DNA of 64,000 nucleotides from Candidatus Nitrosocosmicus oleophilus. Its GTDB lineage: Archaea; Thermoproteota; Nitrososphaeria; Nitrososphaerales; Nitrososphaeraceae. The stretch is from positions 1,860,001 to 1,924,000 of the forward strand of contig NZ_CP012850.1 in NCBI RefSeq assembly GCF_000802205.1. The letters run 5' to 3'. The translations under genes were made by a program, and so were the position numbers. Below the pieces are notes generated by a model. That model was not told where the DNA came from. It searched no databases and was given only the letters and a program-made list of their open reading frames with translations. Positions 1 through 14,779 of this stretch are shown piece after piece; position 1 is the first letter of the stretch; the number at the start of each line of letters is the position of its first letter.

Positions 1-169
1 TTCTGTCAGGGTCAAGTTGTGGCAGCTTGACATCGGCAGAATCATTAACCGTAGAACTAAATACCATATTATTTGTTGACAAGGGGGATTGAAACAGGAT
101 AGAGAAGAAAAGAATTGTCAATGACGAATTTAATAATAAATTCTTACAGCTTGGCATAACTACTTTCAT
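1..169 (-). CDS. exported protein, truncated at window edge
   Basis: Only the first 56 codons lie in the window; the gene runs off the left edge. From an ATG at 169 the product has a short basic start (MKVVMPSCKN), a hydrophobic stretch of about 20 residues, and then a polar Ser/Asn-rich region, which reads as a signal peptide followed by the mature part of an exported protein. A TATA-like box lies about 28 nt upstream, so the start is well supported. Nothing in the visible part identifies a family. Confidence 0.6.
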   Translation of the reverse strand, partial: MKVVMPSCKNLLLNSSLTILFFSILFQSPLSTNNMVFSSTVNDSADVKLPQLDPDR

Positions 170-497
170 CACAGATAAAATTCTACACGGTGTATATTAT
201 ATCAATTTTACCTTTATCCTATTTTAATAATGCTCTATTCAAAGCGTGAACTGAAGAACGATAAACCCTAGCGACGACGGGTGAAAGTTTACTTGATAGT
301 TCTATCCTTCATGCCAGGCGCCATTTTTACGTAATGTCTCTTGGGGTTGACCTCATAGCAAATCTAACAAACCAAATAATTTTTCAGATTAGATATTGTA
401 TAACGGTAACAAAGGCAGAAAAACGACAGACTCCTATCTTGGTTTATTATCAATTTTTTCTAGGTTAAGTTTACGTCATCATTTTTTCAAAAACCGA
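170..497. other. gene-free stretch
   Basis: Apart from the TATA box at 192-203 I see no coding or RNA signal here. It separates the divergent edge gene from the tail of the small gene at 498-851. Confidence 0.5.
192..203 (-). promoter_or_regulatory. TATA box for the exported protein
   Basis: On the minus strand the AT-only stretch GATATAATATAC is centred about 28 nt before the ATG at 169. This spacing fits an archaeal TATA box that drives a nearly leaderless transcript. Confidence 0.45.
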
Positions 498-851
498 TTA
501 TCTATTCTGATAATTCTCTTCTAGCTCAAAATACTTTTTTTTCAAACTCTCATATTCAGTGGGTTGTATGTCTGGAGCATTCATATACAAGTAATTTTTC
601 ACAGATTGATTGTTCCTAAGATTTTTCCAGTTTGAAAGGAATTTCTTTATAAAATCATCAATAACCTCCTTGTTGGTTAATCCAGTTGAATCAATTTTAA
701 GACTCTCATTGATAAAACATATCTCTTCTTTATTGTCGCCGCTTATGTATTCGATAGGGATAGGTTTAAATTTTTTTCCTTCGACCTTATTTGGAATTAT
801 TACTGCGATGTAAGGTTTTTTTTCAAATTCTAATCTCTTTTTTTCACCCAT
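498..851 (-). CDS. small hypothetical protein, 117 aa
   Basis: I do not recognise a family. The ATG at 851 (MGEKKRLEFEKK) is preferred over one 14 codons upstream because the upstream extension is hydrophobic and low-complexity, while a T-rich TATA-like stretch lies about 25 nt before 851. The product is charged and soluble, with an N-terminal half that looks beta-rich (KPYIAVIIPNKVEGKKF) and a C-terminal half of amphipathic helices ending in a Glu/Lys-rich segment. It has no Cys pairs, no membrane segment and no catalytic motif. It sits alone just upstream of the tRNA-Ala gene, outside the integrated segment. Confidence 0.55.
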   Translation of the reverse strand: MGEKKRLEFEKKPYIAVIIPNKVEGKKFKPIPIEYISGDNKEEICFINESLKIDSTGLTNKEVIDDFIKKFLSNWKNLRNNQSVKNYLYMNAPDIQPTEYESLKKKYFELEENYQNR

Positions 852-1041
852 TATGCATATTAGTGCATAAAAATTAAAAATTAATTGGAACAAAAAAAAT
901 AATAGACAATTTATGCAAGTTTTGCCGTTTGATTCATACCGTTTTCCGATATTAGTGAAAACTATTTCAGAAATTCATCAACGGAAATGACTCTCATCTC
1001 AACAAATATTAATGCGTCACAAAAATTAATGTAAATAGTAG

Positions 1042-1115
1042 GGGCCGATCGTCTAGCCTGGTAGGATACGGCATTGGCATTGCCGAGGTCGTGGGTTCGA
1101 ATCCCACTCGGTCCA
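1042..1115 (+). tRNA. tRNA-Ala (anticodon GGC)
   Basis: A full cloverleaf can be drawn. The acceptor stem GGGCCGA pairs with TCGGTCC. It includes the G3-U70 wobble pair that is the identity element for alanyl-tRNA synthetase. The anticodon stem CGGCA/TGCCG closes the 7-nt loop TTGGCAT with anticodon GGC. The T arm is GTGGG-TTCGAAT-CCCAC, and the discriminator base is A. There is no intron and CCA is not encoded, as is common in archaea. The 3' end doubles as the left attachment site of an integrated segment: its last 18 bases are repeated exactly at 8862. Confidence 0.95.
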
Positions 1116-1117
1116 TA
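1098..1117 (+). repeat. attL: 20-bp direct repeat at tRNA 3' end
   Basis: The sequence CGAATCCCACTCGGTCCATA covers part of the T loop, the 3' side of the T stem and the acceptor stem of tRNA-Ala, plus two bases beyond it. An identical copy lies at 8862-8881 in the same orientation. Tyrosine recombinases of archaeal integrative elements typically use this part of a tRNA gene and leave the tRNA intact on one side. Confidence 0.85.
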
Positions 1118-1240
1118 TCATTTCTGTATGGATTTATGGTTCCTTCTCCATTACAATGGTATCCTCAATGCAGATATCACCAATTGAAAATCAGCAAAAT
1201 TTTCACGTACATATAGATCCATATTCAAAGTTTATGTAGT

Positions 1241-1250
1241 CTTAAATACT
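1241..1250 (+). promoter_or_regulatory. TATA box for the MFS gene
   Basis: CTTAAATACT is centred about 26 nt before the TTG start at 1272. This spacing predicts a leaderless transcript beginning at or next to the start codon and supports the TTG choice. Confidence 0.5.
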
Positions 1251-1271
1251 TGCACGTGATGATAATGCCAA

Positions 1272-2804
1272 TTGTCTGCAACTGCTGATCCCGGATCTCC
1301 TCCTACAGAACAAATATCATTTAATGCGTGGAAAACGCTTTTATTATTGGCCAGTACTATTGTGATGTTTCTCTTTCTCAATACTGCCATGGCACCGGCT
1401 ATTCCGGTTATAGCTGAGGATTTTCAAATTTCCGAAGCTCTTTCATCCTGGGTGATGACAGCATACATGGTGTCAGGAGCTGTTATGACAGTGGTAATGG
1501 GAAGGTTGTCAGACCTTGTTGGAGCCAAGAAAATGCTAATGATTATGATGACATGTTTTACTGTAGGAACTATCTTGGCACCATTTGCTAATGACATATC
1601 AACCCTCATTGCCATTAGAGCACTTCAGGGAATAGCAATAGCTAGTACTCCGATTTCAACTAAATTAATAAGAGACCAGTTCCCTAAGAGCAAATTTCCA
1701 ATCGGCATGAGTATATATCTTGCCGCCTATTCTGGTGGCATGGCGCTAGGGGCCGTGTTAGGACCCGTAGTAGCTGCAAACGCAGGTTGGCAGGCTAATT
1801 TCTACTTCTGCGCTCCTATTGCAGTAGTTTTGTTACTTGCATGCTGGAAGTTCATTCACGTCGATGAAAGTAAGAAGATACACGAGCATGATCATGTTGA
1901 CACAGCTTCAAATGATATTCCTACTAAGGCTCAGAAGCAGACTGGAAAACAACGTATAGACTTTATAGGTATTATAACTATGGCTGTGACACTCGTCAGT
2001 TTTCTCATAGCAATAACATATAGTGGATCAATGGCCACTAATCCAATAGCGTTTGTAGTTCCTCTCGCCATAGGTGCTATCTTTCTTATGCTTTTCCTAA
2101 TTGTGGAAAAGCGAGTAAAATATCCGTTGGTTAACTTGAAATTAGTTTTTCATCCAGTTATTTTTGTTGGAAACATCACAATGTTAATGTTCGGTATTTT
2201 ACAGTATTTCGTTATTACAGGCATACCGGCGTTGGGATCTGCTCCTTCCCCATCAGGGTTAGGTCTAGAACCAGAAAATGTGGGATTTCTACAGTTGGCT
2301 TTTGGTCTATCAATGATGATCTTTGGGCCAATTTTCGGGTTGATTATAGCAAAAAGAAGAGGACTCAATACGAAGTTATTGGTACCTGGTATTGTAATTG
2401 CCGCTGTTTCATTTTTGTTGCTTTTGTTATTCCATTCCTCATCACAAGCTATTAATGGTGCACTCTTCATATTTGGTATCGCTGGAGCACTATTACCAAC
2501 CACATTTATTAACACGATTATAGCATTTTCACCTAAAGAATTTACTGGAATTTCCTCAGCTGTTACTAATATGATGAGAATTGTAGGAGGTGCAATAGGT
2601 CCAGTGATCACAACTGTAATTCTAACATCTGTTACGGTCTCTATTACCGTTGATAATGTTGAGGGAAGTTATCCAAGTCCAGTTGCATTTAACATTGTCT
2701 TTGGGATTGGGCTTGTAATGGCAATTGTATCTGTGGTCCTAGCTCTCAGGATGAAACACCTTGCTACTAAGATGACGCCGTTAACAACCAAAGACATCAC
2801 GTGA
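1272..2804 (+). CDS. MFS transporter, DHA2-like, 14 TM
   Basis: This is a proton-coupled drug or metabolite exporter of the major facilitator superfamily, in the inner membrane. The 510-residue length and about 14 hydrophobic segments fit the 14-TM DHA2 group. The loop between TM2 and TM3 carries motif A (GRLSDLVGAKK, about residues 77-87). A TM4 motif (RALQGIA) and a TM5 Gly-rich stretch (GMALGAVLGPVV) follow. The loop near residues 197-211 is rich in His and Asp (HEHDH), a possible metal-binding patch. The TTG start is set by the TATA box at 1241, and the nearby ATG at 1265 is out of frame. The gene is clearly related to the one at 16959-18479 but lies inside the tRNA-bounded island. The substrate is unknown. 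Confidence 0.85.
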   Translation: MSATADPGSPPTEQISFNAWKTLLLLASTIVMFLFLNTAMAPAIPVIAEDFQISEALSSWVMTAYMVSGAVMTVVMGRLSDLVGAKKMLMIMMTCFTVGTILAPFANDISTLIAIRALQGIAIASTPISTKLIRDQFPKSKFPIGMSIYLAAYSGGMALGAVLGPVVAANAGWQANFYFCAPIAVVLLLACWKFIHVDESKKIHEHDHVDTASNDIPTKAQKQTGKQRIDFIGIITMAVTLVSFLIAITYSGSMATNPIAFVVPLAIGAIFLMLFLIVEKRVKYPLVNLKLVFHPVIFVGNITMLMFGILQYFVITGIPALGSAPSPSGLGLEPENVGFLQLAFGLSMMIFGPIFGLIIAKRRGLNTKLLVPGIVIAAVSFLLLLLFHSSSQAINGALFIFGIAGALLPTTFINTIIAFSPKEFTGISSAVTNMMRIVGGAIGPVITTVILTSVTVSITVDNVEGSYPSPVAFNIVFGIGLVMAIVSVVLALRMKHLATKMTPLTTKDIT

Positions 2805-2898
2805 AGTCTCTGGAGTCTCACAACAATCTCCAATGCCATTAAAGATTCAGATAGCTAATAGGCGTGTTACAAACTTTAGGCGTACACCAACTTCCTGT

Positions 2899-3465
2899 TT
2901 AAGATGAAGAGATAGTTCTTGTAAATCGTTCTTTACCAGATATTCCCGATACCATCATCTCTATTCCGCTTATTAGAAATGCAATAGAGATCATAATAGC
3001 GAATAGAACCAACCCAAAAGACACTGGTTGTGCTATCACCAGAATAGACACTGTAACACAGAGAACTCCTACGCCTATACTAAAAGCTCTCGACGAACCT
3101 AAAGACTTGAATGTTATACCCTGTATTATCCTCGCAATACCATTTATGAGTAAGGCGATTGCAGCCAAAACAACTAAAACCGCTGATGTGAATACGGGGA
3201 ATTGCATAAGTACAACAGAAAAGGCTATCACCAGCAGACCAATTCCAATATTAGCGTAGCGTGATCCTTTGGAAGATGTAGGCATAGCAATCCCAACAGC
3301 TATCCTTTCAATTCCGATGATCAGCAAAACCACCGAAAGAATCAAAATAATTGTCAATATTGCAGGACCAATGTATGCTAAAATAACGAGGGATAACAAT
3401 ATGCATATTCCGCCTAATACGATCTGAAGCATTCTAAGCCAAGGCTGAGACTCGGAAGTTTGCAA
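2899..3465 (-). CDS. HdeD/DUF308 family membrane protein
   Basis: The 188-residue protein consists almost entirely of six hydrophobic helices arranged as three similar hairpins, each ending in a pattern like LLINGIARIIQGI or LISGIEMMVSGI. That is the hallmark of the HdeD/DUF308 family, whose bacterial namesake is tied to acid resistance; the molecular role is unclear. It converges on the MFS gene with a gap of about 95 bp and has no cytoplasmic domain. Two relatives occur in this window: a free-standing copy at 27898-28452 and the N-terminal part of the glycosidase fusion at 24489-26840. Confidence 0.8.
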   Translation of the reverse strand: MQTSESQPWLRMLQIVLGGICILLSLVILAYIGPAILTIILILSVVLLIIGIERIAVGIAMPTSSKGSRYANIGIGLLVIAFSVVLMQFPVFTSAVLVVLAAIALLINGIARIIQGITFKSLGSSRAFSIGVGVLCVTVSILVIAQPVSFGLVLFAIMISIAFLISGIEMMVSGISGKERFTRTISSS

Positions 3466-4696
3466 TATATTAACTGTTTTTAGGCGACCTTTATAAGGTT
3501 ACACTTAGTTGTTCAATATATGGTTTGATGCAAAAATAACAAAATTGCATAAGCAAAATGGGAATAAAAATTGTAAAGATGATTGTATCTTTAATGACTC
3601 CACGTTCTTCTAATGTGATCTCCAAGGCTAGACTAATGAATTATGCAGCACAAGACAACACTTTCTAATGGAAGTCTTTATGTAACGTGCTCTTGAAGCC
3701 CGCGCTTGATGCAGTCGCCGGCGACCACTGCAACATCAACCTCTGAGGACTGGGTTGTCATGGAAACCCCTTTGCGCTCAACCAGTTACTGCACTGGGCA
3801 ACTATCCGCTATGTCATAATATTCATTACAATTCTTCCAGAGCAGTGTATCTGAATTTACAACAACGTAAGCGGGTACGACGTGTGTCTAACAAAGATGG
3901 TTCCTTTAAAATTGACGAATATAAATATGGATACGTTGTAAGCATTAAGAAGATGGACTGCTCTAGGATTTCAAACTAAGTTTTGTTAATTTCTCATATC
4001 GAGTATTCGTTTATCGTAATATTCTGGTAGAGGTTATTAGTAAAGGATAGAGAAGTATGTGATATAGAGCGATTAAAATTGCATTCGTGTATCATCTAAG
4101 TAAATTACCATTAGAGAGATTTATATTTCAGGTATTTCTGAAGAGTTGGAGTAGATGGGGGATGGTTCCTTCAGATTAAATTCTTGTTATTCTTAATCAC
4201 CTTCGCAAATTTTTTCATTAATCTACTAACCTATCAAAATCTACTTTTTTAACCAAAAAATATATCAAATCTAAGAAAAATTGTGAAATTCTGGTTGAAT
4301 TAAAGATTAATCAAAAAAGGGCTTATAGTTCGAGAGCTGTTATCACCTACTTTCCTATTGTTGCATTTAGAATGAAAATAGTTATCTCGTTTGGATGTGA
4401 TACATGACGTATGGTAAGACTGACGTAGTGATAGAGGGGTTATATTCATTCGTTCTGCATACGTCTGTTGAACATCTGGGGAATCATTGATCGGACTCAG
4501 ATATCTGATACTGTGTTGGTATTTCTTTCAAGATGTGGGGGCTGATTCCTAAATATCTTTGATTTGACCCCATTGCAAGAATGGTTAGAATTATCAAAAT
4601 AATTTAAACATGGACATCGAAATTTATCAAACAGCACAAAAAAAAGAGTGGTGAGAACGTACCACCATTATGAGGTTGTTTGAAGTAGTGGATTGG
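3466..4696. other. gene-poor stretch inside the island
   Basis: No convincing gene is present in 1.2 kb. A GC-richer patch at about 3678-3990 keeps short coding-like frames: a 27-codon minus-strand frame at 3678-3761 (MTTQSSEVDVAVVAGDC...) and a 74-codon plus-strand frame at 3755-3979 that lacks any recognisable domain. A perfect 12-bp palindrome GTCGCCGGCGAC lies at 3714-3725. These look like scraps of former genes. The rest (4000-4696) is AT-rich with no signal that I can name. Confidence 0.45.
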
Positions 4697-5748
4697 TCAG
4701 TGTAGATATGGCAATATTGTATTGTTGAGTGGTGGCATCAGACCAATTTGTTGTAACAAGGTCATTCTGTCGTAAAAGATCTTACCTGCCTTTACCTTTC
4801 CTGCGCTGTCCCAGTCAAGAACTTCAACTGCATCAAGTTAGAATTTGTTACCAGTAGCAGGAGTGCCTTCATAAGACTGATCATTTGTGCCATATATGGT
4901 AACCTTTGAGAAGGTTTGGTCGCCGGATAGGTAATACTGGTAGTTGGCTATCTTTGCATCACTAGACATATTTGATGGCTTGGTAACTCCTCTGGTGTTA
5001 TCAGGATTTGGCCTGTTGCTTGATCTGCATATTGAATTTTAGGTATTATGTATGGTAATACTGCAGATAAGTCTAGCTCACTCCATTTCTAATGTAACCA
5101 ATTATGACGTTGTCTGAGATCGTCTGATGGGGCTGCTGTTGGGCCCGGAGGTAGAGTCTCAGGTGGAGCTGATGCCATACGTGTTGGTACTGGGGTATCA
5201 GGGACTGTCCGGTTGGCCTTACCAAGTTGATCTAGGAAACCCAACCTATCATAATATATATCCCCACCAATGACTCTCTCACTATCATCCCATAGGATGA
5301 ACTCGGCAAGTGGTACTTCAAACGTGTTGCCGGTAGCCGGGCCGACAATTGAAACGTCGTTTGTGGCATTCATTATACCATTCATTAGAATCATATCGTT
5401 GGTATTTTCTTTGATGTATTGACGGTCTACCAACTTTGCATCGCTAGAGAAATTCCAAACAGAACTTGCATAGGTTTTCATCTGTGGTATGGTGTAGACA
5501 TGATGTCCCGTAGGATGATCTACATAGTAGAATATTGACTCAAAGAACGGAAGAAACGCGGAAATATTCTGGGCATTCTACAATTCGTGTGACCAATTGT
5601 AAATTCCAATAAGACTACCTGGGGCCTCCATATCTGTTACGTTAGGCATATAGGTAGTAGGCGGAGAGGTTGTTGCGTAAACTGTCATAGTTTGCAATAA
5701 TAATAAACTTGCAATGACTGTACTAACAATAACTTTGGATAAGATCAT
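4697..5748 (-). pseudogene. exported tandem SnoaL/NTF2-like protein, broken
   Basis: Reading the minus strand from an ATG at 5748 gives a signal peptide (MILSKVIVSTVIAS...) and then two related SnoaL/NTF2-like domains. The first spans about 5650-5180 and the second about 5105-4700. The two align along their length: the NWSHEL / KWSELD entry, FSSDAKLVDRQYI / MSSDAKIANYQYY, the shared PATGN turn, and the closing signature IYYDRLGFLDQLG / IFYDRMTLLQQIG. At least four lesions are visible: TAG at 5578-5580, TAG at 5089-5091, a frameshift near 4961-4980 and TAA at 4838-4840. A Pro-rich linker separates the domains. Known: SnoaL/NTF2 folds serve as small-molecule cyclases or binding domains. Inferred: a once-exported two-domain protein, now dead. 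The 130-residue open frame at 5089-5481 is only a piece of it. Confidence 0.75.
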
Positions 5749-6389
5749 GAGTAGTTGACAATAGCCATTGTATATAAAGGGACCTAAAGGAATCTATATT
5801 AAAATCATCTCCAAAAATATACAAACCTCATATTTACTAATATTCTCAGCTTGACAACCTAATCCATTTGAACCTGATCCTGTTCTACGGAACTAAATAA
5901 ATGACTAGTGAATCGGCGTTCTATACCAAACTTTCCATGATTTACTTTGATCTGAGCCGTGCGATTTGACTTATTCTTTTTTTATAAGATCGAGGCTACT
6001 GATTTGGGCGCCCTTAAAAGCAGTTTTAAGCAAGATAAACACCATTTTGACTCTTTTTGGCCTAACGGATACAGGTCAAGGAAACCAAAGATTGAGGCTT
6101 CTCATTAAAACTTTTTTCTAAAATAGGAGGCTTTAAGACAAGTTATAGAACCGATATCGACACTCCTCCCTCCGGTCCCGTACCTAGAATAATCATTTAG
6201 TTCCAGGTCACTTTTACAGTGAAATATTTCTTTTTTTAACGCCCGGATTGTAATACTTGTCATAATTCTGGGATTTTCCAAAGATTCTGGTCATGATTTA
6301 ACATTTACTTTGGTCTTTTGTATCTATGGTCAAAAAATGGCAAAATCACACAACCGTTATATATCCATTACTATAAATGAGTATTAGTA
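5749..6389. other. intergenic, upstream of the MCO operon
   Basis: No gene is seen. The left side holds the promoter of the broken exported protein and the right end holds the TATA box of the oxidase operon (6356-6364). Runs such as TTTTTGGCC and several T tracts are present but nothing forms a recognisable element. Confidence 0.45.
6356..6364 (+). promoter_or_regulatory. TATA box of the sORF-MCO operon
   Basis: GTTATATAT is centred about 29 nt before the ATG of the small frame at 6390 and 135 nt before the oxidase ATG. Transcription is therefore predicted to begin at or next to the small frame. Confidence 0.5.
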
Positions 6390-6494
6390 ATGAGACAGAT
6401 TAGAAAAACCTACTTTATTCATAAACAGAACAATGTAGAATTTGAACTTATAAGAAATAATTCGGAAATATCAAAACAAGGTGGATGTAATTAA
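6390..6494 (+). CDS. 34-aa leader ORF upstream of multicopper oxidase
   Basis: An ATG placed where a leaderless transcript from the TATA box at 6356 would start opens a 34-codon frame (MRQIRKTYFIHKQNNVEF..., ending QGGCN). Its TAA directly abuts the ATG of the oxidase, with no intervening base. The peptide is basic at its N-terminus and has one Cys next to the C-terminus. A ribosome-binding sequence AGGTGG, 10 nt before the oxidase ATG, lies inside its last codons, so translation of the two frames is probably coupled. No homologue is recognised. It could be a metal- or translation-sensing leader peptide, or simply a short cistron. Confidence 0.45.
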   Translation: MRQIRKTYFIHKQNNVEFELIRNNSEISKQGGCN

Positions 6495-8006
6495 ATGATC
6501 CACCGAATAGGATCCTCCGTTAATACCTTTGGATTGTTATCCACCTTTTCCATCTCCATGTTTGTTTTGATAATGATGTTTGCATTTGATCATTCGAATC
6601 TTAATGCTTTCGCTCAAAATCAATCCTTGCCTTTTTCTGATATTTATAGCGACCAAGTGTTAGGAAAAATAAATGATAAAGATCATTTGGCTGAAATGAA
6701 CTTTTCAAAGCCTGTAGACGTATACAGTAAAGACGGAGTTTTGAAAACTACACTGGTTGCAGATTATAAGATAGGTAAAGTGGACAACAAGACAACCACT
6801 GCAATGGTATACAATGGTTCTCTCGTGGGGCCCGCTTTCCATGTTTATCCTGGAGACAGAGTGGAGATTGATTTGGTAAACAATCTCAGAGAGTCTACCA
6901 ACCTCCATTTCCATGGACTTCATGTGTCTCCTGGAAATACATCTGATAATATATTTCTGGATGTTCAGCCTGGCAAAACGCTGCACTATATTCTAGATAT
7001 TCCAAAAGATCATGAACCGGGCACGAATTGGTATCATTCACATTTGCATATGCTTTCTTATGGACAAGTTTCGGGAGGCCTGTCTGGGTTGTTCATTATT
7101 GAAGGTTTAGAAGAGTTATTGCCAGAGCCATTACAGAATATCACACATCAAACCATTGCCATAAAGGATTTTCCATTTGACAATCTATGGGTAACTACGC
7201 ATGATTTGAGTAACACAATGTCAGGCCATGAAAGCCTAACCGTTAACGGGGAAGTCAATCCTACCATCAACATTACATCAGGCGAGACCCAGTTATGGCG
7301 CCTGGCCAACATCGGTTCTGAGAATGAATATATAATTAAACTCCCAGGCAATACATTCCATGTTATCGCAGAAGATGGAAGCCCGGTTTGGGAGGTGTGG
7401 AATAATGATAGTCTTTTCTTTCCCTCTGGTAAACGGTTTGATGTATTGGTGACTGCCAACGGTAGCGGGTTTCTTCCATTAGGAGTTCCTCCTAACCCCT
7501 TTACTGCACCGTATGATTCACATGTTGCGACTGTGAATATACAAGGTAACCAAACCAATGAAAAACCTGCCGATATCCTTCCAACAAGCTTAATTCCAAG
7601 GAGTGACCTCAGTAATGCCACCATCGCTGAACATAGAGTCCTTAATTTCTCATCAAACGATAGAGATTATATCTACAAGATAAATAACAAAACATTTGAT
7701 GTCAACAGAACAGACTTTAAACCTAAACTTGGAACTGTAGAGGAGTGGAAGTTAGTAAACCTTGATAAAATCTCATCTGGCAACATTCATCCGTTTCATA
7801 TTCATATAAATGATTTTCAGGTAATGTCAGTTAATGGTCAGCCTTATAACGCACACGGATTACAAGATACAGTTATGATTCCAACTGAAGGCGATGTGGT
7901 CATTCGAATCCCATTTGATGATTTTGTGGGAAAATCTGTCTTTCACTGCCACCTGATGTTTCATGGAGACTTTGGCATGATGGGGATCTTTGAGGTCGTT
8001 AAATAG
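6495..8006 (+). CDS. secreted multicopper oxidase (laccase-like)
   Basis: This exported three-cupredoxin-domain multicopper oxidase couples one-electron oxidation of a substrate to reduction of oxygen to water. The signal peptide covers about residues 1-41 (ending NAFAQN). All four copper motifs are intact: HFHGLH (138-143), HSHLH (181-185), HPFHIH (432-437), and HCHLMFHGDFGM (484-495), which gives the type 1 Cys485, His490 and axial Met495. The 503-residue length is normal. The ATG is preceded by AGGTGG and directly abuts the stop of a 34-codon leader frame. A small Cys-containing exported protein follows 28 bp downstream, probably in the same operon. Possible substrates are Cu(I), Mn(II), phenolics or nitrogen oxides; the sequence does not decide. 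Confidence 0.93.
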   Translation: MIHRIGSSVNTFGLLSTFSISMFVLIMMFAFDHSNLNAFAQNQSLPFSDIYSDQVLGKINDKDHLAEMNFSKPVDVYSKDGVLKTTLVADYKIGKVDNKTTTAMVYNGSLVGPAFHVYPGDRVEIDLVNNLRESTNLHFHGLHVSPGNTSDNIFLDVQPGKTLHYILDIPKDHEPGTNWYHSHLHMLSYGQVSGGLSGLFIIEGLEELLPEPLQNITHQTIAIKDFPFDNLWVTTHDLSNTMSGHESLTVNGEVNPTINITSGETQLWRLANIGSENEYIIKLPGNTFHVIAEDGSPVWEVWNNDSLFFPSGKRFDVLVTANGSGFLPLGVPPNPFTAPYDSHVATVNIQGNQTNEKPADILPTSLIPRSDLSNATIAEHRVLNFSSNDRDYIYKINNKTFDVNRTDFKPKLGTVEEWKLVNLDKISSGNIHPFHIHINDFQVMSVNGQPYNAHGLQDTVMIPTEGDVVIRIPFDDFVGKSVFHCHLMFHGDFGMMGIFEVVK

Positions 8007-8034
8007 GTGATGATGTGATTTGGAGATAAGTAAA

Positions 8035-8703
8035 ATGTTAAAGACAGATATATCCCAAAAAGGAAAAACAGTGGCTTTGTTCGTAATGCTAGTCTTCGCC
8101 ATAGCTGGACTCACAGCAGTAACATCTCTTTCAAATTCGTCTGTGGCAGCACAAGGCCCAGTAAATCTTTCAGATCCGTCTGTGGTAGCGGAATTATCTG
8201 GATTGAACAAACATCCCAATTTAACCCCCGGTAATGTTTCAAAATCGTCTGTGGAAGCACAAACCCAAGATTCCGACCCAAATGATTGTTTCAGGACAAA
8301 CAATAACTTAGATACTTGTCCTATGCATTCACACTTCAAAGGCCTCAGTAACTCCACAACGGATTGTTTCAAGATAGTTGGAGAAGGGAAGGTAAGCACC
8401 GGCGATGCTCAAAACTACACAAACAGTGTACAGAGCTTTTTCTCCTTACTAGCTGCAAACAATAAACTAACATCAATAAATGAAAATATAGCTGAAGGCA
8501 GCGGTCCAATTACTAATATGAAGGGTATATGGGATTTAATGGGAAATGAGGTCATGACTCGAAATGACAGACAAATGGTATTGGACGAAATTGATAGCAT
8601 CTTGGCAGCCGCCCAACCCGGGTTTACCCAAATACAACAGGATGGGCTAAATTTCTGTTTCACAGATGAAACCGATGCTTTAGGCGCTTCACCTAACTAT
8701 TAG
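8035..8703 (+). CDS. exported Cys-containing protein, MCO operon partner
   Basis: No family is recognised. The ATG at 8035 follows a GGAG-type ribosome site with 7-9 nt spacing and gives 222 residues; a TTG at 8020 would add five. A basic N-terminus and a hydrophobic segment (VALFVMLVFAIAGL) form a signal peptide or anchor. The next region carries three imperfect copies of a short unit around SSV(A/V/E)A, also visible in DNA (TCGTCTGTGG and CCGTCTGTGG), at about 8138, 8176 and 8250. The mature part has four Cys (in FRTNN, DTCPMHSH, TTDCFKI and LNFCFTD contexts) and a Met/His cluster, CPMHSH, that could bind copper. Its position directly behind the oxidase suggests an accessory or electron-transfer role; this is inference. 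Confidence 0.75.
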   Translation: MLKTDISQKGKTVALFVMLVFAIAGLTAVTSLSNSSVAAQGPVNLSDPSVVAELSGLNKHPNLTPGNVSKSSVEAQTQDSDPNDCFRTNNNLDTCPMHSHFKGLSNSTTDCFKIVGEGKVSTGDAQNYTNSVQSFFSLLAANNKLTSINENIAEGSGPITNMKGIWDLMGNEVMTRNDRQMVLDEIDSILAAAQPGFTQIQQDGLNFCFTDETDALGASPNY

Positions 8704-8861
8704 GTCCATAATCTTTTTCTTTAGGCAAGAAAATAGTCTGTAAGATTATCCCTTTTCATTTATTCATTTTTGTTTAGCAAACCTCTAGACACTTAGAGAG
8801 ACTGACCACAGAACTTTCCTGAACTATTAATATACCTTATAATTCCATGTCATTTTTGCCG

Positions 8862-8881
8862 CGAATCCCACTCGGTCCATA
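8862..8881 (+). repeat. attR: orphan copy of tRNA-Ala 3' end
   Basis: This is an exact 20-bp copy of 1098-1117 with no tRNA 5' half next to it: the bases before it (TTTTTGCCG) do not form a T stem. It marks the distal boundary of the segment inserted behind tRNA-Ala. Confidence 0.85.
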
Positions 8882-9123
8882 ATAGTAACAATACTGAAAT
8901 ACGGTAGTTTCAATATTAATACTAAAAAAGAACAGTAAATAGATAGTCTCGGATAATCTGGCAAACTTAGACTTTGTATGATGCTAGTCCCCATCGTCTT
9001 GACCTTTTTCTTTGAAGGAATACTCCTTTTTTTACCCAATTTTTAAGTTAAATTACTTAGATTTTTGTAATTTTTTTAAATACATATCTAATAAACAATG
9101 AATTTTTTAATCTATGGGAAAAA

Positions 9124-9133
9124 GTATAAAAGG
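9124..9133 (+). promoter_or_regulatory. TATA box of the MEDS operon
   Basis: GTATAAAAGG, a strong archaeal TATA match, lies about 31 nt before the TTG start at 9160. Confidence 0.5.
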
Positions 9134-9159
9134 ATTGTAGTCGGTATTTAATTATTAAT

Positions 9160-10431
9160 TTGACTGGTGCTGACCTTGATTCTTCCTTGGTAAGATCCTC
9201 TAATCATATCCTAGCTATATATCTTAATAGTGGAGAGAAATTAGATGCTGCATTCAGATTCTTACACGATGGGCTCTTGAATAATGAAGCCGTTTTGTTG
9301 ATAACTGACGAGATAACAAAGGAGGATGCAATTACACGCATGGAAAAGGATTACGCCGGGTTCGATGTCTTAGATCTATTAGAGAGGGGGGTAATTTCCA
9401 TAAAATCAACTGGTCAATGTCATCTTATAGATGATTATTTTGATGGTAACAGGACTCAGATCAAATGGAAAAAGGATGCGGTAGGATCACTATTAAATAG
9501 TTTCTTTATAGAAAATTCATCAAGAAAAGGAAAAGTTAGTGGACTGAGGGCATTTGGCGACACCAAATCTTTCTTTAATAAGGATAAAAGATCAAGCAAT
9601 GAAAAGACTCCTTTTAGTTTTATTGATAATCTTGTAGAATATGAATGCTCTTTGAAAAAGCGTTTTCCGTTTCCATTGAAAGTTATTTGTGCATATGAGG
9701 AAGCAGACATAGTTCAGCTTAGCAATCTGGAATTTAAATCACTCTTAAAACATCATGGAGTATTTCATAAAGATAGTATCAAGGAACTCGCTTACCCTTT
9801 ACAAAATGCGCATATCATGTTATTATATAATAATCAACAGGACTTGAATGATGCCTACATCACATATATCAATGAAGGTTTGGCTCAAGGTCAGCTATGT
9901 GTTTTTGCCTCTGTTCTTCTACAAAACAATGATTTCTTAAAAGATATTTCCTCGAGAATAATAAATTTTGAAGAAAATGTACAGAATGAGAATCTGATGC
10001 TGGTCGATATGGCCAAATACTACATTCAAGCGATGATGGATAACCTACAGGAGTTTGACAATCTTAAGAATAAGTTGATGGATAAAGTTAGAAACGATAT
10101 AAAGAGAAATGATAAACATGTTCGACTTATCGATGATTGCAGTGAGTTTCTCTTCAAAAACAAACACTTTGAAGAATGTATTAACTTAGAAAATTGGATA
10201 CACCAAAAACGATTTGAAGGTTCGGTCCTTTGCCCTTATTCAAAATCTTTGTTTGATCAGTTTCCTTATTGCTATTATCTTTTTAGGGTTTTCCACAGCG
10301 ATGATATAGTTATTGATTCACGTGGTAATTTTCTCCTTGACTATGTAAGGAATTCTGAGCATCAATCTAAACTTATTTCCTATATGATGAAAAGAATGGA
10401 TATCTTTAATGTGGGGTTGAATGGAGAGTGA
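9160..10431 (+). CDS. tandem MEDS-domain sensor protein
   Basis: This 423-residue soluble protein carries two copies of the MEDS fold (sensory domain of methanogens, methylotrophs and DcmR). The first is at about residues 14-205 (HILAIYLNSGEKLDAAFRF...) and the second at about 215-405 (HIMLLYNNQQDLNDAYITY...INEGLAQGQLCVFAS). Each starts with the His-hydrophobic strand and the helix ending in a Gly-Leu turn, typical of the family. There is no histidine kinase, receiver or DNA-binding domain. The TTG start is placed by the TATA box at 9124. The gene overlaps the next one by 4 bp (GTGA), so the two are co-translated. Inferred role: ligand sensing for the receiver partner; the ligand is unknown. 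Confidence 0.75.
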   Translation: MTGADLDSSLVRSSNHILAIYLNSGEKLDAAFRFLHDGLLNNEAVLLITDEITKEDAITRMEKDYAGFDVLDLLERGVISIKSTGQCHLIDDYFDGNRTQIKWKKDAVGSLLNSFFIENSSRKGKVSGLRAFGDTKSFFNKDKRSSNEKTPFSFIDNLVEYECSLKKRFPFPLKVICAYEEADIVQLSNLEFKSLLKHHGVFHKDSIKELAYPLQNAHIMLLYNNQQDLNDAYITYINEGLAQGQLCVFASVLLQNNDFLKDISSRIINFEENVQNENLMLVDMAKYYIQAMMDNLQEFDNLKNKLMDKVRNDIKRNDKHVRLIDDCSEFLFKNKHFEECINLENWIHQKRFEGSVLCPYSKSLFDQFPYCYYLFRVFHSDDIVIDSRGNFLLDYVRNSEHQSKLISYMMKRMDIFNVGLNGE

Positions 10432-11465
10432 GTACGCCAACACAGGATCCAAAAAAATACCCATTTAATGAAAATAAAGTCGAGCATGACATAAAAATAA
10501 CCAATTTATACGCTGCAAATAAGAAAAAGATCAGTATCCTTGTCTTTGATACGGATCCTGATATTCAATATCTTTACCAAGAATATATGAAGGTCATATC
10601 ACCTCATGTTTCATGTACTATTGCAGACGATATTGAGAAAATGATTTTTGGTAATGATAGTTTAAATGTCAACAAATTCAACCCTCCTCAAAAATCTAAC
10701 TTCGACACTATCATTGTTGATGTTAATGTTGGTGACTATGATATAATTAGAGCTGTCAAGAAAATACTTCAGAATATACCTAAACAAAAAATAGTCTTTA
10801 CAACAACGGCAGACCTTCATATAATAAAAAATGAAATGATTTGTCAAGGTTTAGTATCTGGTGTAGTTATACTACGAAAGCCATTTAGTTTTTCAGATTT
10901 ACTCGCAGTTATATCTCCTACTAAGGACAAATTTGCTAAACTGAAATTGACAGACCATGTCTTGGCTTCTTATAACTCTATGCAGGAAGAATTAACGGAT
11001 GCGGTAGATTTCATTAAGAAAGGCGTTGATTCAGACGAATTAAATCTGCTTTTGATAAGAAATGATATGGACATTGAAAATACTATTTGTACCTTACGAT
11101 CAAAAGGATTATCAAACGTTGATACTTTGATAGAAGATGAATCTCTTATTATTATTAGGAATTCAAAGTGGTATATTCCAGATGGCAGAGTCGACGTACC
11201 TAGAATAATGAATCAGTGGGATGCTTTAGTAAACCGATCAATACAGCAAAAGAAAATAGGCCTAAGGGCATTTTGTATGATGGATTGTTTTTTCGAAAAT
11301 GGGTTTTCATCAGAGCTTGTAGATTATGAGTGTAATTTGCCTTCACAATTTCAGATACCTATTATTCCGTTATGTGCATATCGACAGATGGATTTAGACT
11401 GTTTAACGGAGAAAGATAAAAAGAGATTGATTGAATGTCATAATCATATGATCATTTGCGAATAA
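10428..11465 (+). CDS. receiver-MEDS two-domain regulator
   Basis: The protein has an N-terminal response-regulator receiver domain at about residues 34-165. The acidic pair lies in ILVFDTDPD (around 41-45), a probable phospho-Asp98 in IIVDVNVGDYD, a Thr-rich strand at 123-128, and the conserved Lys151 in LRKPF. A MEDS domain follows at about 172-340 (DHVLASYNSMQEELTDAVDF..., ending in LCAYRQMDLDCL). There is no output DNA-binding domain, so it probably acts through protein contacts. Translation starts at a GTG that overlaps the stop of the upstream MEDS gene. No histidine kinase is nearby. The insertion sequence begins less than 100 bp downstream. Confidence 0.75.
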   Translation: MSTPTQDPKKYPFNENKVEHDIKITNLYAANKKKISILVFDTDPDIQYLYQEYMKVISPHVSCTIADDIEKMIFGNDSLNVNKFNPPQKSNFDTIIVDVNVGDYDIIRAVKKILQNIPKQKIVFTTTADLHIIKNEMICQGLVSGVVILRKPFSFSDLLAVISPTKDKFAKLKLTDHVLASYNSMQEELTDAVDFIKKGVDSDELNLLLIRNDMDIENTICTLRSKGLSNVDTLIEDESLIIIRNSKWYIPDGRVDVPRIMNQWDALVNRSIQQKKIGLRAFCMMDCFFENGFSSELVDYECNLPSQFQIPIIPLCAYRQMDLDCLTEKDKKRLIECHNHMIICE

Positions 11466-11550
11466 AATTTACCATTAATTTTAAAGTGTTACAATATTAC
11501 TATGGATGAAAACATTTACTGTATCAAAGGATACTGTCTTGTTTTTCATA

Positions 11551-11558
11551 ATTATATC
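11551..11558. repeat. target site duplication, left copy
   Basis: ATTATATC directly precedes the insertion sequence. The same 8 bp directly follow it at 12556-12563. Confidence 0.8.
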
Positions 11559-11576
11559 TGCTTTGTCGCCTAACTC
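11559..11576 (+). repeat. IS left terminal inverted repeat
   Basis: TGCTTTGTCGCCTAACTC pairs with the right end at 12538-12555 with three mismatches. Confidence 0.85.
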
Positions 11577-11611
11577 AACATATTTAGCTGGAATGAACAG
11601 ATTGATTATTT

Positions 11612-12505
11612 GTGATAGACTGGCCCTCTTACAATCGCTCATTAGTTCAACGCGGTGAGATCCTCTTCTCGTATGATTTCCTTGATGGTTGGGGTTCAGA
11701 GATAGAGAATATGAATATAAACAAAAAGGGTAAACCATTTGTATTTCCAGATTCTTTCATCTTGGCCATTGGTTACATTCGCTATTTATTTCACCTACCA
11801 TACAGACAAACCCAAGGTATAATTAAGGCCACAGGAAAAAGGTTACCTGCTAATCCACCAAGTTATGGTCACATCTGTAAACGAATCAACAAGCTAAACA
11901 TCGATATTAAAAGAGACAAGATGGATGACGATGATGACCTAATAATATCAATAGACAGTACAGGTATCAAGATTACTACCAGAGGTCAGTGGATGGATGA
12001 GAAATGGAATACACAAAATAGAAAAGGATATCTCAAGATCCACGTTGCTGTAGACATAAAGACCAGGAAAATCATTGCTTTGGAAGTGACAGATGAGAAG
12101 GTACATGATGGGAAAATGCTAAAGAAACTAGTCAATCATGTTTTGGATTCGAGAGAACCAAACACTGTAAAGATAAAATCGGTACTAGCTGATGGAGCCT
12201 ATGATTCAAATCCAAACTTTGTGTATCTTGAGGACAAAAAGATCAATCCAGGTATAAAGGTAAGAAGGAACTCTATTGTTTCTCCTAAAAACAATAGGTT
12301 AAGGAACAACGAAGTAAAGTTACAAGCAAAGGATCTGTTGAAATGGAAGACAAAAAGAAAATACGGACAGAGATGGATATCTGAAACTGTGTTCTCAGCT
12401 ATAAAGAGAATGTTTGGTGAATACACATCAGCAAACAGGTTTCAAAACATGGTAAAGGAGATCATGATAAAAGTATCATTGTATAACATTTTTAGAAGAA
12501 TATAA
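11612..12505 (+). CDS. IS903-group DDE transposase
   Basis: This 297-residue transposase of the IS5 family, IS903 group, catalyses cut-and-paste or replicative movement of the element. The N-terminus has the group's typical opening (DWPSYNRSLVQRGEI). The catalytic acids are visible as Asp in SIDSTGIKI (near residue 117), Asp in LADGAYD (near 194) and Glu in ISETVFSAIKRMFGE (near 261). The C-terminal Y-(2)-R-(3)-E-(6)-K-like region is present. The GTG at 11612 is the first start codon after an in-frame stop. Length and motifs are complete, so the enzyme is probably functional. Confidence 0.88.
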   Translation: MIDWPSYNRSLVQRGEILFSYDFLDGWGSEIENMNINKKGKPFVFPDSFILAIGYIRYLFHLPYRQTQGIIKATGKRLPANPPSYGHICKRINKLNIDIKRDKMDDDDDLIISIDSTGIKITTRGQWMDEKWNTQNRKGYLKIHVAVDIKTRKIIALEVTDEKVHDGKMLKKLVNHVLDSREPNTVKIKSVLADGAYDSNPNFVYLEDKKINPGIKVRRNSIVSPKNNRLRNNEVKLQAKDLLKWKTKRKYGQRWISETVFSAIKRMFGEYTSANRFQNMVKEIMIKVSLYNIFRRI

Positions 12506-12537
12506 CATGATGATCATGATGATAACCGGAGAATAAG

Positions 12538-12555
12538 GAATTATGCAACAAAGCA
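12538..12555 (-). repeat. IS right terminal inverted repeat
   Basis: Read on the minus strand this is TGCTTTGTTGCATAATTC, the partner of the left end. Confidence 0.85.
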
Positions 12556-12563
12556 ATTATATC
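12556..12563. repeat. target site duplication, right copy
   Basis: ATTATATC directly follows the right terminal repeat and matches 11551-11558. Confidence 0.8.
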
Positions 12564-13306: not shown

Positions 13307-14779
13307 TTACCGGAGTTCTGTTTGGACCCTTTGTGTAACCCCTTTCATCTGCTCCTTAGCCTCTTTGTACCCATCTTGTATTAACTGTCTTATTGTGGTT
13401 TCGGAAAAATCAAATGTCTTGTTTGAAACAGTATGGCTATCGTTTTTTCTCTCTAGACGAACGACGAAATCAACATCTACCCTACCCTTCAGTAAATCCT
13501 CGTATTTTAGTTTTTTTCCAGTTGCAAGATAAACGCCCTTAGTTTTCTCTGCAAAGAGAAGCTTTAGTTCCTCATCGCTTACTCCTTTTTTTTCTGCTAA
13601 TTTGATTAGAGATTCTGCGAACGCCGCAAAATCAGAGAGGAGAATTGCGATATTTTCATCAAACAATGTTCTGTCGTGATAGATAATGTCATTCTTTCTG
13701 TCAACAACCCCATCATAGTCGGTGGGAAGATATTCTTGTTTTGCTGGATGAAGATTTATTATACCATATCTAAGCGTGGGAATTCCATATTCTAATTTCT
13801 TCACCTTGTACCAATATTCCCTATGAGAAACTATCGTCTGCCTTAATGGTGTATTAGCTAAAAGCCCACCATCCCAAAAAGAGTGCAAGCTAATATTATT
13901 GTTTTTTAAGGCGGATTTTCCGTCGTTTTCAGGATCTATAATGTCGTCACGTCCCTCGAATATCAACGGACGAGTTTCAACGCTGATCTTAGTGTAATCA
14001 TAATTTACAGGCACTGAACAGCTAGCCAGTACAAAGTCTGATGTAATGCCGTCATTATATCTTATGATATGTTCAAACCCTTCATTTTCTGGATTCTTTT
14101 CCGAACCTCCATATTTCAGTCTACCGTATCTACCATATTCGGATTTTCTTGTTCCATCTTCCTTTTCATAACTATCAAAGATTACCGGAGATCCCTCTTG
14201 AACATCCACAGCAACCAGCAAGAGCCTTGGTTCTCCATTCTCAAGGCTCGTGGAAATAGGAAATTTGGCAAACTTTTCGAGGCTCTCTCTTAACGGCTTA
14301 TTATCATAGGTATACCATGTATTTGAAGGGTCAAAAAATCGATTGTCATGTATAGGCTTGTTGGGAACAAACACTTTAGGAACACCATTAAAAATAAATT
14401 GCTTTGTGCTAAAATATCTTCTAGCGGACTCACCTGATGCGACTCGACTATTCACCTTATGCCAAGAATCCCAATAGTCTACAAAATTTGGAATATTATC
14501 TACCCAGGATCGCGTAGAAAGATACTCCCAAAATTCAACTAACCTTTCACCAGATCCTTCCCATGTTTTATTTTCCTTTACATAGCTTACCAAAATCGCA
14601 GCGTTTATCGAACCTATCGAAGTTCCAGATACGATATGAAAATGTGGTTCGTTTTCCCTACCTTCAATTTTAAATAATTTTGACAGAGACTCCTTGATGG
14701 CAGTATAAACTCCAGCTTCGTATGCTCCAAGTGAACCTCCCCCCTGAAATATCAGTGCTCTATTGACATTGGACTTCAC
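13307..14779 (-). CDS. patatin-like phospholipase
   Basis: This is a serine lipid acyl hydrolase with a Ser-Asp dyad. The oxyanion-hole loop GGGSLGAYEAG (residues 13-23), the nucleophile elbow GTSIG (Ser54) and the catalytic DGG (Asp303, in FWDGGLLANTP) are all present. The 490-residue length and long C-terminal part fit patatins that carry an extra C-terminal domain such as DUF3734. There is no signal peptide, so it probably works in the cytoplasm or at the inner membrane face, perhaps in turnover of ether or acyl lipids. A paralogue of similar length lies at 22540-23970. The gene has no close co-directional partner. Confidence 0.88.
   Translation of the reverse strand: MKSNVNRALIFQGGGSLGAYEAGVYTAIKESLSKLFKIEGRENEPHFHIVSGTSIGSINAAILVSYVKENKTWEGSGERLVEFWEYLSTRSWVDNIPNFVDYWDSWHKVNSRVASGESARRYFSTKQFIFNGVPKVFVPNKPIHDNRFFDPSNTWYTYDNKPLRESLEKFAKFPISTSLENGEPRLLLVAVDVQEGSPVIFDSYEKEDGTRKSEYGRYGRLKYGGSEKNPENEGFEHIIRYNDGITSDFVLASCSVPVNYDYTKISVETRPLIFEGRDDIIDPENDGKSALKNNNISLHSFWDGGLLANTPLRQTIVSHREYWYKVKKLEYGIPTLRYGIINLHPAKQEYLPTDYDGVVDRKNDIIYHDRTLFDENIAILLSDFAAFAESLIKLAEKKGVSDEELKLLFAEKTKGVYLATGKKLKYEDLLKGRVDVDFVVRLERKNDSHTVSNKTFDFSETTIRQLIQDGYKEAKEQMKGVTQRVQTELR

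Follow-up and report, generated by a model that had tools for sequence, protein, structure and literature searches.

What separates the 3' end of a tRNA-Ala(GGC) gene of Candidatus Nitrosocosmicus oleophilus from a second, perfect copy of that end 7.74 kb downstream, and how could such a segment have come to lie there when no integrase is visible in it? We addressed this question in a window of 64,000 nucleotides, the whole stretch of DNA analysed here, which corresponds to positions 1860001-1924000 of a genome assembled as a single contig of 3.43 Mb.

An insertion behind tRNA-Ala(GGC)

A repeat search in the window recovered the perfect 20-nt direct repeat (CGAATCCCACTCGGTCCATA) reported in the original prediction, with one copy forming the 3' end of the tRNA gene and 7744 bp enclosed between the two copies. 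The repeat is far beyond chance expectation (exact 20-mer copies expected from base composition: 2.5e-8 per 64 kb and 1.3e-6 per 3.43-Mb genome), and its 18-nt tRNA part has exact matches at these two sites only in the 3.43-Mb genome. The target and the boundaries are as follows.

1042-1115, plus strand: intact tRNA-Ala(GGC), the integration target (ARAGORN; homologous gene at the matching locus in relatives)
1098-1117, plus strand: attL core, copy 1 of the 20-bp direct repeat (repeat search, empty-site alignment)
1118-1143, plus strand: left arm of the element (TCATTTCTGTATG...GGTTCC), common to the integrase-bearing elements of genomes G003, G010 and G012
8843-8861, plus strand: right arm of the element (TTCCATGTCATTTTTGCCG), identical in the islands of G009 and G010
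8862-8881, plus strand: attR core, copy 2 of the 20-bp direct repeat (repeat search, empty-site alignment)
8882-11558, plus strand: right flank of the host chromosome, which in G013 directly adjoins the tRNA (90.6% identity)

The comparison with related genomes that had been proposed as a check was run, and an uninterrupted tRNA-Ala locus with one repeat copy was found in G013, a sister species whose rpoB region is 96.4% identical to that of the window genome. Window positions 1-1117 align to it at 89.5% and positions 8862-11558 at 90.6%; the two alignments abut, sharing a single copy of the repeat with nothing between, and the attB of G013 reads as the tRNA followed by CGAATCCCACTCGGTCCATAATAGTAACAATACTG, that is, the window tRNA joined straight to the window right flank. 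Because these flanks abut with a single repeat copy, the 7744 bp are an insertion bounded by the repeat, and the segment is a real foreign insertion behind tRNA-Ala(GGC). A degenerate tRNA gene as the source of the second copy is ruled out by the same empty site. The 3' flank of the tRNA looks empty in G005 too, where 60 bp match the window right flank (78%). Further downstream, the window holds an IS element (about 11559-12556) with a DDE transposase (11612-12505); G013 has no IS there, and its flanks are joined at that point.

Contents and mixed origin of the island

The transporter, HdeD, copper oxidase and broken genes listed in the original prediction are all present, together with a possible relic in the middle of the island:

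1272-2804, plus strand: DHA2-like MFS transporter (Pfam; DNA match to another genus)
2899-3465, minus strand: DUF308/HdeD-like membrane protein that moved together with the MFS gene (Pfam, DNA comparison)
about 4700-5750, minus strand: decayed secreted gene with in-frame stops and a frame change, called SnoaL-like in the original prediction
6150-6218, plus strand: possible relic of an internal right end (weak sequence match to G006 C257)
6495-8006, plus strand: three-domain multicopper oxidase (MCO), laccase/CueO-like (Pfam; copper-ligand motifs intact by eye)
8020-8703, plus strand: 227-aa protein without a family assignment; a signal peptide is likely (by eye), and the gene adjoins this MCO type elsewhere in the genus

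The SnoaL label of the broken gene is not borne out by any Pfam match and goes back to the first reading of the sequence. The claim that no recombinase is visible was confirmed by profile search and by tblastn with the tRNA-Ala integrases of relatives: inside 1098-8881 there is no PF00589 match and no homologue. Judged from its sequence, the decayed gene and the long non-coding middle point to an island that is degrading. The relic matches, over 66 bp at 73% identity (E 3e-5; best reversed-query control, E = 0.017), a sequence that runs from upstream of the G006 C257 motif into the motif itself, and would give a hint of a tandem or composite island.

The segment carrying the MFS and HdeD genes (1235-3519) is 92.7% identical at the DNA level over 2295 bp to a Nitrososphaerales genome of another genus, TH5895 (G035), whose rpoB region is 72.8% identical to that of the window genome. 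TH5895 (G061) and G035 were taken as one genome because their tRNA-Ala match coordinates and E-value coincide. Above 41% amino acid identity, the pair is absent from the other 14 Nitrosocosmicus genomes. At the level of sequence comparison, this documents a movement of the pair between genera, and the island is a mosaic of cargo.

The MCO has three cupredoxin domains (Cu-oxidase_3, Cu-oxidase and Cu-oxidase_2 in Pfam) and the copper motifs HFHGLH, WYHSHLH, HPFHIHI and HCHLMFH, read by eye in the translation; its best solved relative is a laccase (E 2e-54), and the protein is probably an oxidase of the laccase/CueO type. Copper tolerance as its function would be a guess, as would the putative role in NO production discussed for thaumarchaeal MCOs (PMC6563490). 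Together with the 227-aa protein gene (window 6274-8874), it is 84% identical to a segment of G010 that lies beside an arsR-arsM-arsC-aquaporin cluster (gene names given by eye from translations). In the phylogeny, the island MCO joins this G010 copy (94/97, just under the star threshold) and not the resident ars-locus copies of its own genome and of G013. The idea that an element brought a copper oxidase into the chromosome thus holds insofar as the island MCO is of another lineage than the resident one, but homologues were already present, one 73% identical about 47 kb upstream and adjoining an ars-like operon, and another at 56%. The resident MCO and small-protein pair by the ars-like operon (G000:C1:1813882-1822400, L123) is followed by a degenerate att-like motif. 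The same locus also holds a fragment that shares 87% identity with the C-terminal end of the patatin-like protein of the window (13307-14779), suggesting a possible old duplication of the region downstream of the tRNA-Ala.

Related elements at the same tRNA

In G003, G010 and G012, the left arm of the window island lies behind tRNA-Ala and is followed by an intact tyrosine integrase gene starting about 55 bp from the tRNA. These integrases (412-431 aa) show a weak but recognisable PF00589 match and HGFRK and YY catalytic motifs in their sequences, and form one clade (96/94). The G010 element spans 36.7 kb and ends in the right arm and core of the window island, matching them over 29 bp with 0 mismatches. 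At the same tRNA-Ala, G001 carries an integrase that is more distantly related (43%). In G009, a 4.3-kb island has a 38-bp right end identical to that of the window island; what remains of its integrase, a stub interrupted by a stop (51% over 37 aa), occupies exactly the position of the intact gene elsewhere. A truncated integrase lies at tRNA-Ala in G004. The tRNA-Ala(GGC) gene is thus a recurrent integration spot, and more than one species shows islands at this tRNA that have lost the integrase. Between the window island and the other tRNA-Ala islands no cargo genes are shared, and the match is confined to the ends; no relatives of the MCO or of the integrases were found in viral contigs or phage records. 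In G004 (L038, C43), the island right end at tRNA-Ala is directly followed by an arsR-arsM-arsC-aquaporin cluster, and the core with its flank is present several times.

The integrases of the window genome itself reach no more than 48% identity with the tRNA-Ala ones and lie at tRNA-Lys, tRNA-Arg or elsewhere; none was found to group with the tRNA-Ala-targeting clade. Related integrases of the genus lie directly behind tRNA-Val(GAC), tRNA-Arg(GCG), tRNA-Arg(TCG) and tRNA-Lys(TTT) (L066, L067, L068, L070, L162 and L164). Since related enzymes sit behind differing tRNAs, the family appears to have switched targets.

These features recall the thaumarchaeal cryptic integrated elements (CIE), which range from 2.6 to 98 kb, frequently carry multicopper oxidases and are defined by their integrase gene (PMC6563490, Krupovic et al. 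2019); among thaumarchaeal att sites, the median is 17 bp long, and 57% lie in tRNA genes (PMC6563490). Like CIE, the window island has short att repeats, an insertion at a tRNA 3' end and MCO cargo, and its relatives carry a tyrosine integrase next to attL; unlike them, it has no integrase, and its cargo is mosaic and partly decayed. It thus displays att repeats at a tRNA and ends common to integrase-bearing elements, but lacks an integrase of its own. Because none lies inside 1098-8881, the island can be named only as a CIE remnant, and it is a decayed member of this already known kind. The integrases of the relatives resemble the SSV1-type (suicidal) archaeal enzymes, a class known from a review (PMC8371274), as archaeal tyrosine recombinases that target tRNA 3' ends; they differ in that the gene is unsplit by integration and lies whole inside attL.

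Explanations for an island without an integrase

We regard the segment as very probably the remnant, probably immobile, of a site-specifically integrated Nitrosocosmicus tRNA-Ala element from which the integrase was deleted. In this family of elements, a tyrosine integrase encoded just inside the left end would recombine the element core with the 3' end of tRNA-Ala(GGC), regenerating the tRNA and placing another copy of the core at the opposite end of the element. Judging from its ends, an integrase encoded by the window copy itself would have carried it in. That gene would later have been lost when sequence between about 1144 and 1234 was deleted or replaced, which would also have set the MFS-HdeD pair beside the left arm, with the MCO and the small protein as cargo at the right end. 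The match of both island ends to integrase-bearing relatives (left arm in G003, G010 and G012, right arm in G009 and G010) argues for this reading, and the decayed remnant envisaged in the original prediction is well supported by such relatives at the same tRNA and by the intermediate that the G009 stub provides. Against it stand the lack of any integrase residue in the window island, so that we infer loss, as opposed to original absence, from the relatives; the cargo, which is not common to other tRNA-Ala islands; and the right-end motif, some copies of which lie where there is no tRNA. Since the island lacks an integrase and the others in the genome sit at tRNA-Lys, tRNA-Arg and elsewhere, it is most likely stranded.

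Integrase-less genomic islands and satellites at tRNA genes are known to combine tRNA-bounded direct repeats with cargo and no recombinase, and bona fide satellites recur together with a helper. The window island shares the former traits but differs in that no helper is seen. A true satellite that never had an integrase, and was moved through its matching att ends when a tRNA-Ala element in the same cell supplied the enzyme, is an unlikely origin. The two island ends do agree with those of autonomous elements, the genus does contain such elements at tRNA-Ala, and the cargo is mosaic and without replication genes. However, the integrases of the window genome are distant from the tRNA-Ala ones and lie at other sites, the same island was not found a second time, and the stub of G009 and the truncated gene of G004 show that decay occurs in comparable islands. 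No helper integrase for this site was found in the same cell; such a helper could have been lost or reside in another strain. With no own-genome integrase grouping with the tRNA-Ala ones and no second island copy, mobilisation in trans, the other proposal of the original prediction, is not supported.

The right end itself belongs to a dispersed family. Its 37 bp (window 8843-8879) consist of TTCCATGTCATTTTTGCCGC and a tRNA-Ala-like core; the left 20 bp occur in 1-4 copies (≤3 mismatches) in 9 of the 15 Nitrosocosmicus genomes, and arm plus core in the same nine and in 0 of 55 other genomes of the family (reversed-pattern controls, 0). Copies of the motif (L119, L120, L121, L123, L151-L154, L156, L158 and L159) often have no tRNA nearby. 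One lies behind the MCO pair at the ars locus of G010, with degenerate counterparts in the window genome and G013, and another behind the small-protein gene in G012 C338; between MCO-pair copies at different loci, homology ends inside the core. The plain reading of these sequences is that the dispersed motifs would be old att scars. A transcription terminator of the MCO pair is disfavoured: the motif holds 17-18 bp of the tRNA 3' end, lies beside many different genes and marks the boundary of the insertion. A second motif family combines the arm TTCCATGTCATTTTTGCCGC with another tail (CTCTTGTT.CAAAT..CTGATTCA; G010 L118 3620-3640 and L117 14902-14928, window genome L160 8684-8710), and two of its copies lie within the G010 element.

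It is also conceivable, if rather improbable, that the 37-bp right end serves as a portable site for mobilisation: a tRNA-Ala integrase working in trans would take up modules tailed with it, such as the MCO pair of the ars loci, and place them behind the tRNA as integrase-less cassettes. If true, this would amount to a cassette system in archaea whose landing site is a tRNA. We give still less credence to an island built in place, in which homologous recombination or gene conversion would have brought the MCO pair and its tRNA-like 37-bp tail from an ars locus without site-specific integration; the homology of window 6274-8874 to the G010 ars locus does end inside the core, and the tail is dispersed, but the element left arm at 1118-1143 and the exact 20-bp boundary at both sides are left unexplained. 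Finally, an ancestral segment lost from G013 by precise excision, which would yield an identical empty site, is highly implausible, as the tRNA flank of G005 looks empty too, the MFS-HdeD pair is missing elsewhere in the genus and has a nearly identical counterpart in another genus, and excision would itself imply a mobile element.

The suggestive repeat now marks an insertion that has been demonstrated, with both an empty site and autonomous relatives known for it. Among soil ammonia oxidisers of the Nitrosocosmicus type, elements have integrated at this tRNA-Ala(GGC) repeatedly, and their islands decay until cargo without an integrase is left, which surveys based on integrases can miss.
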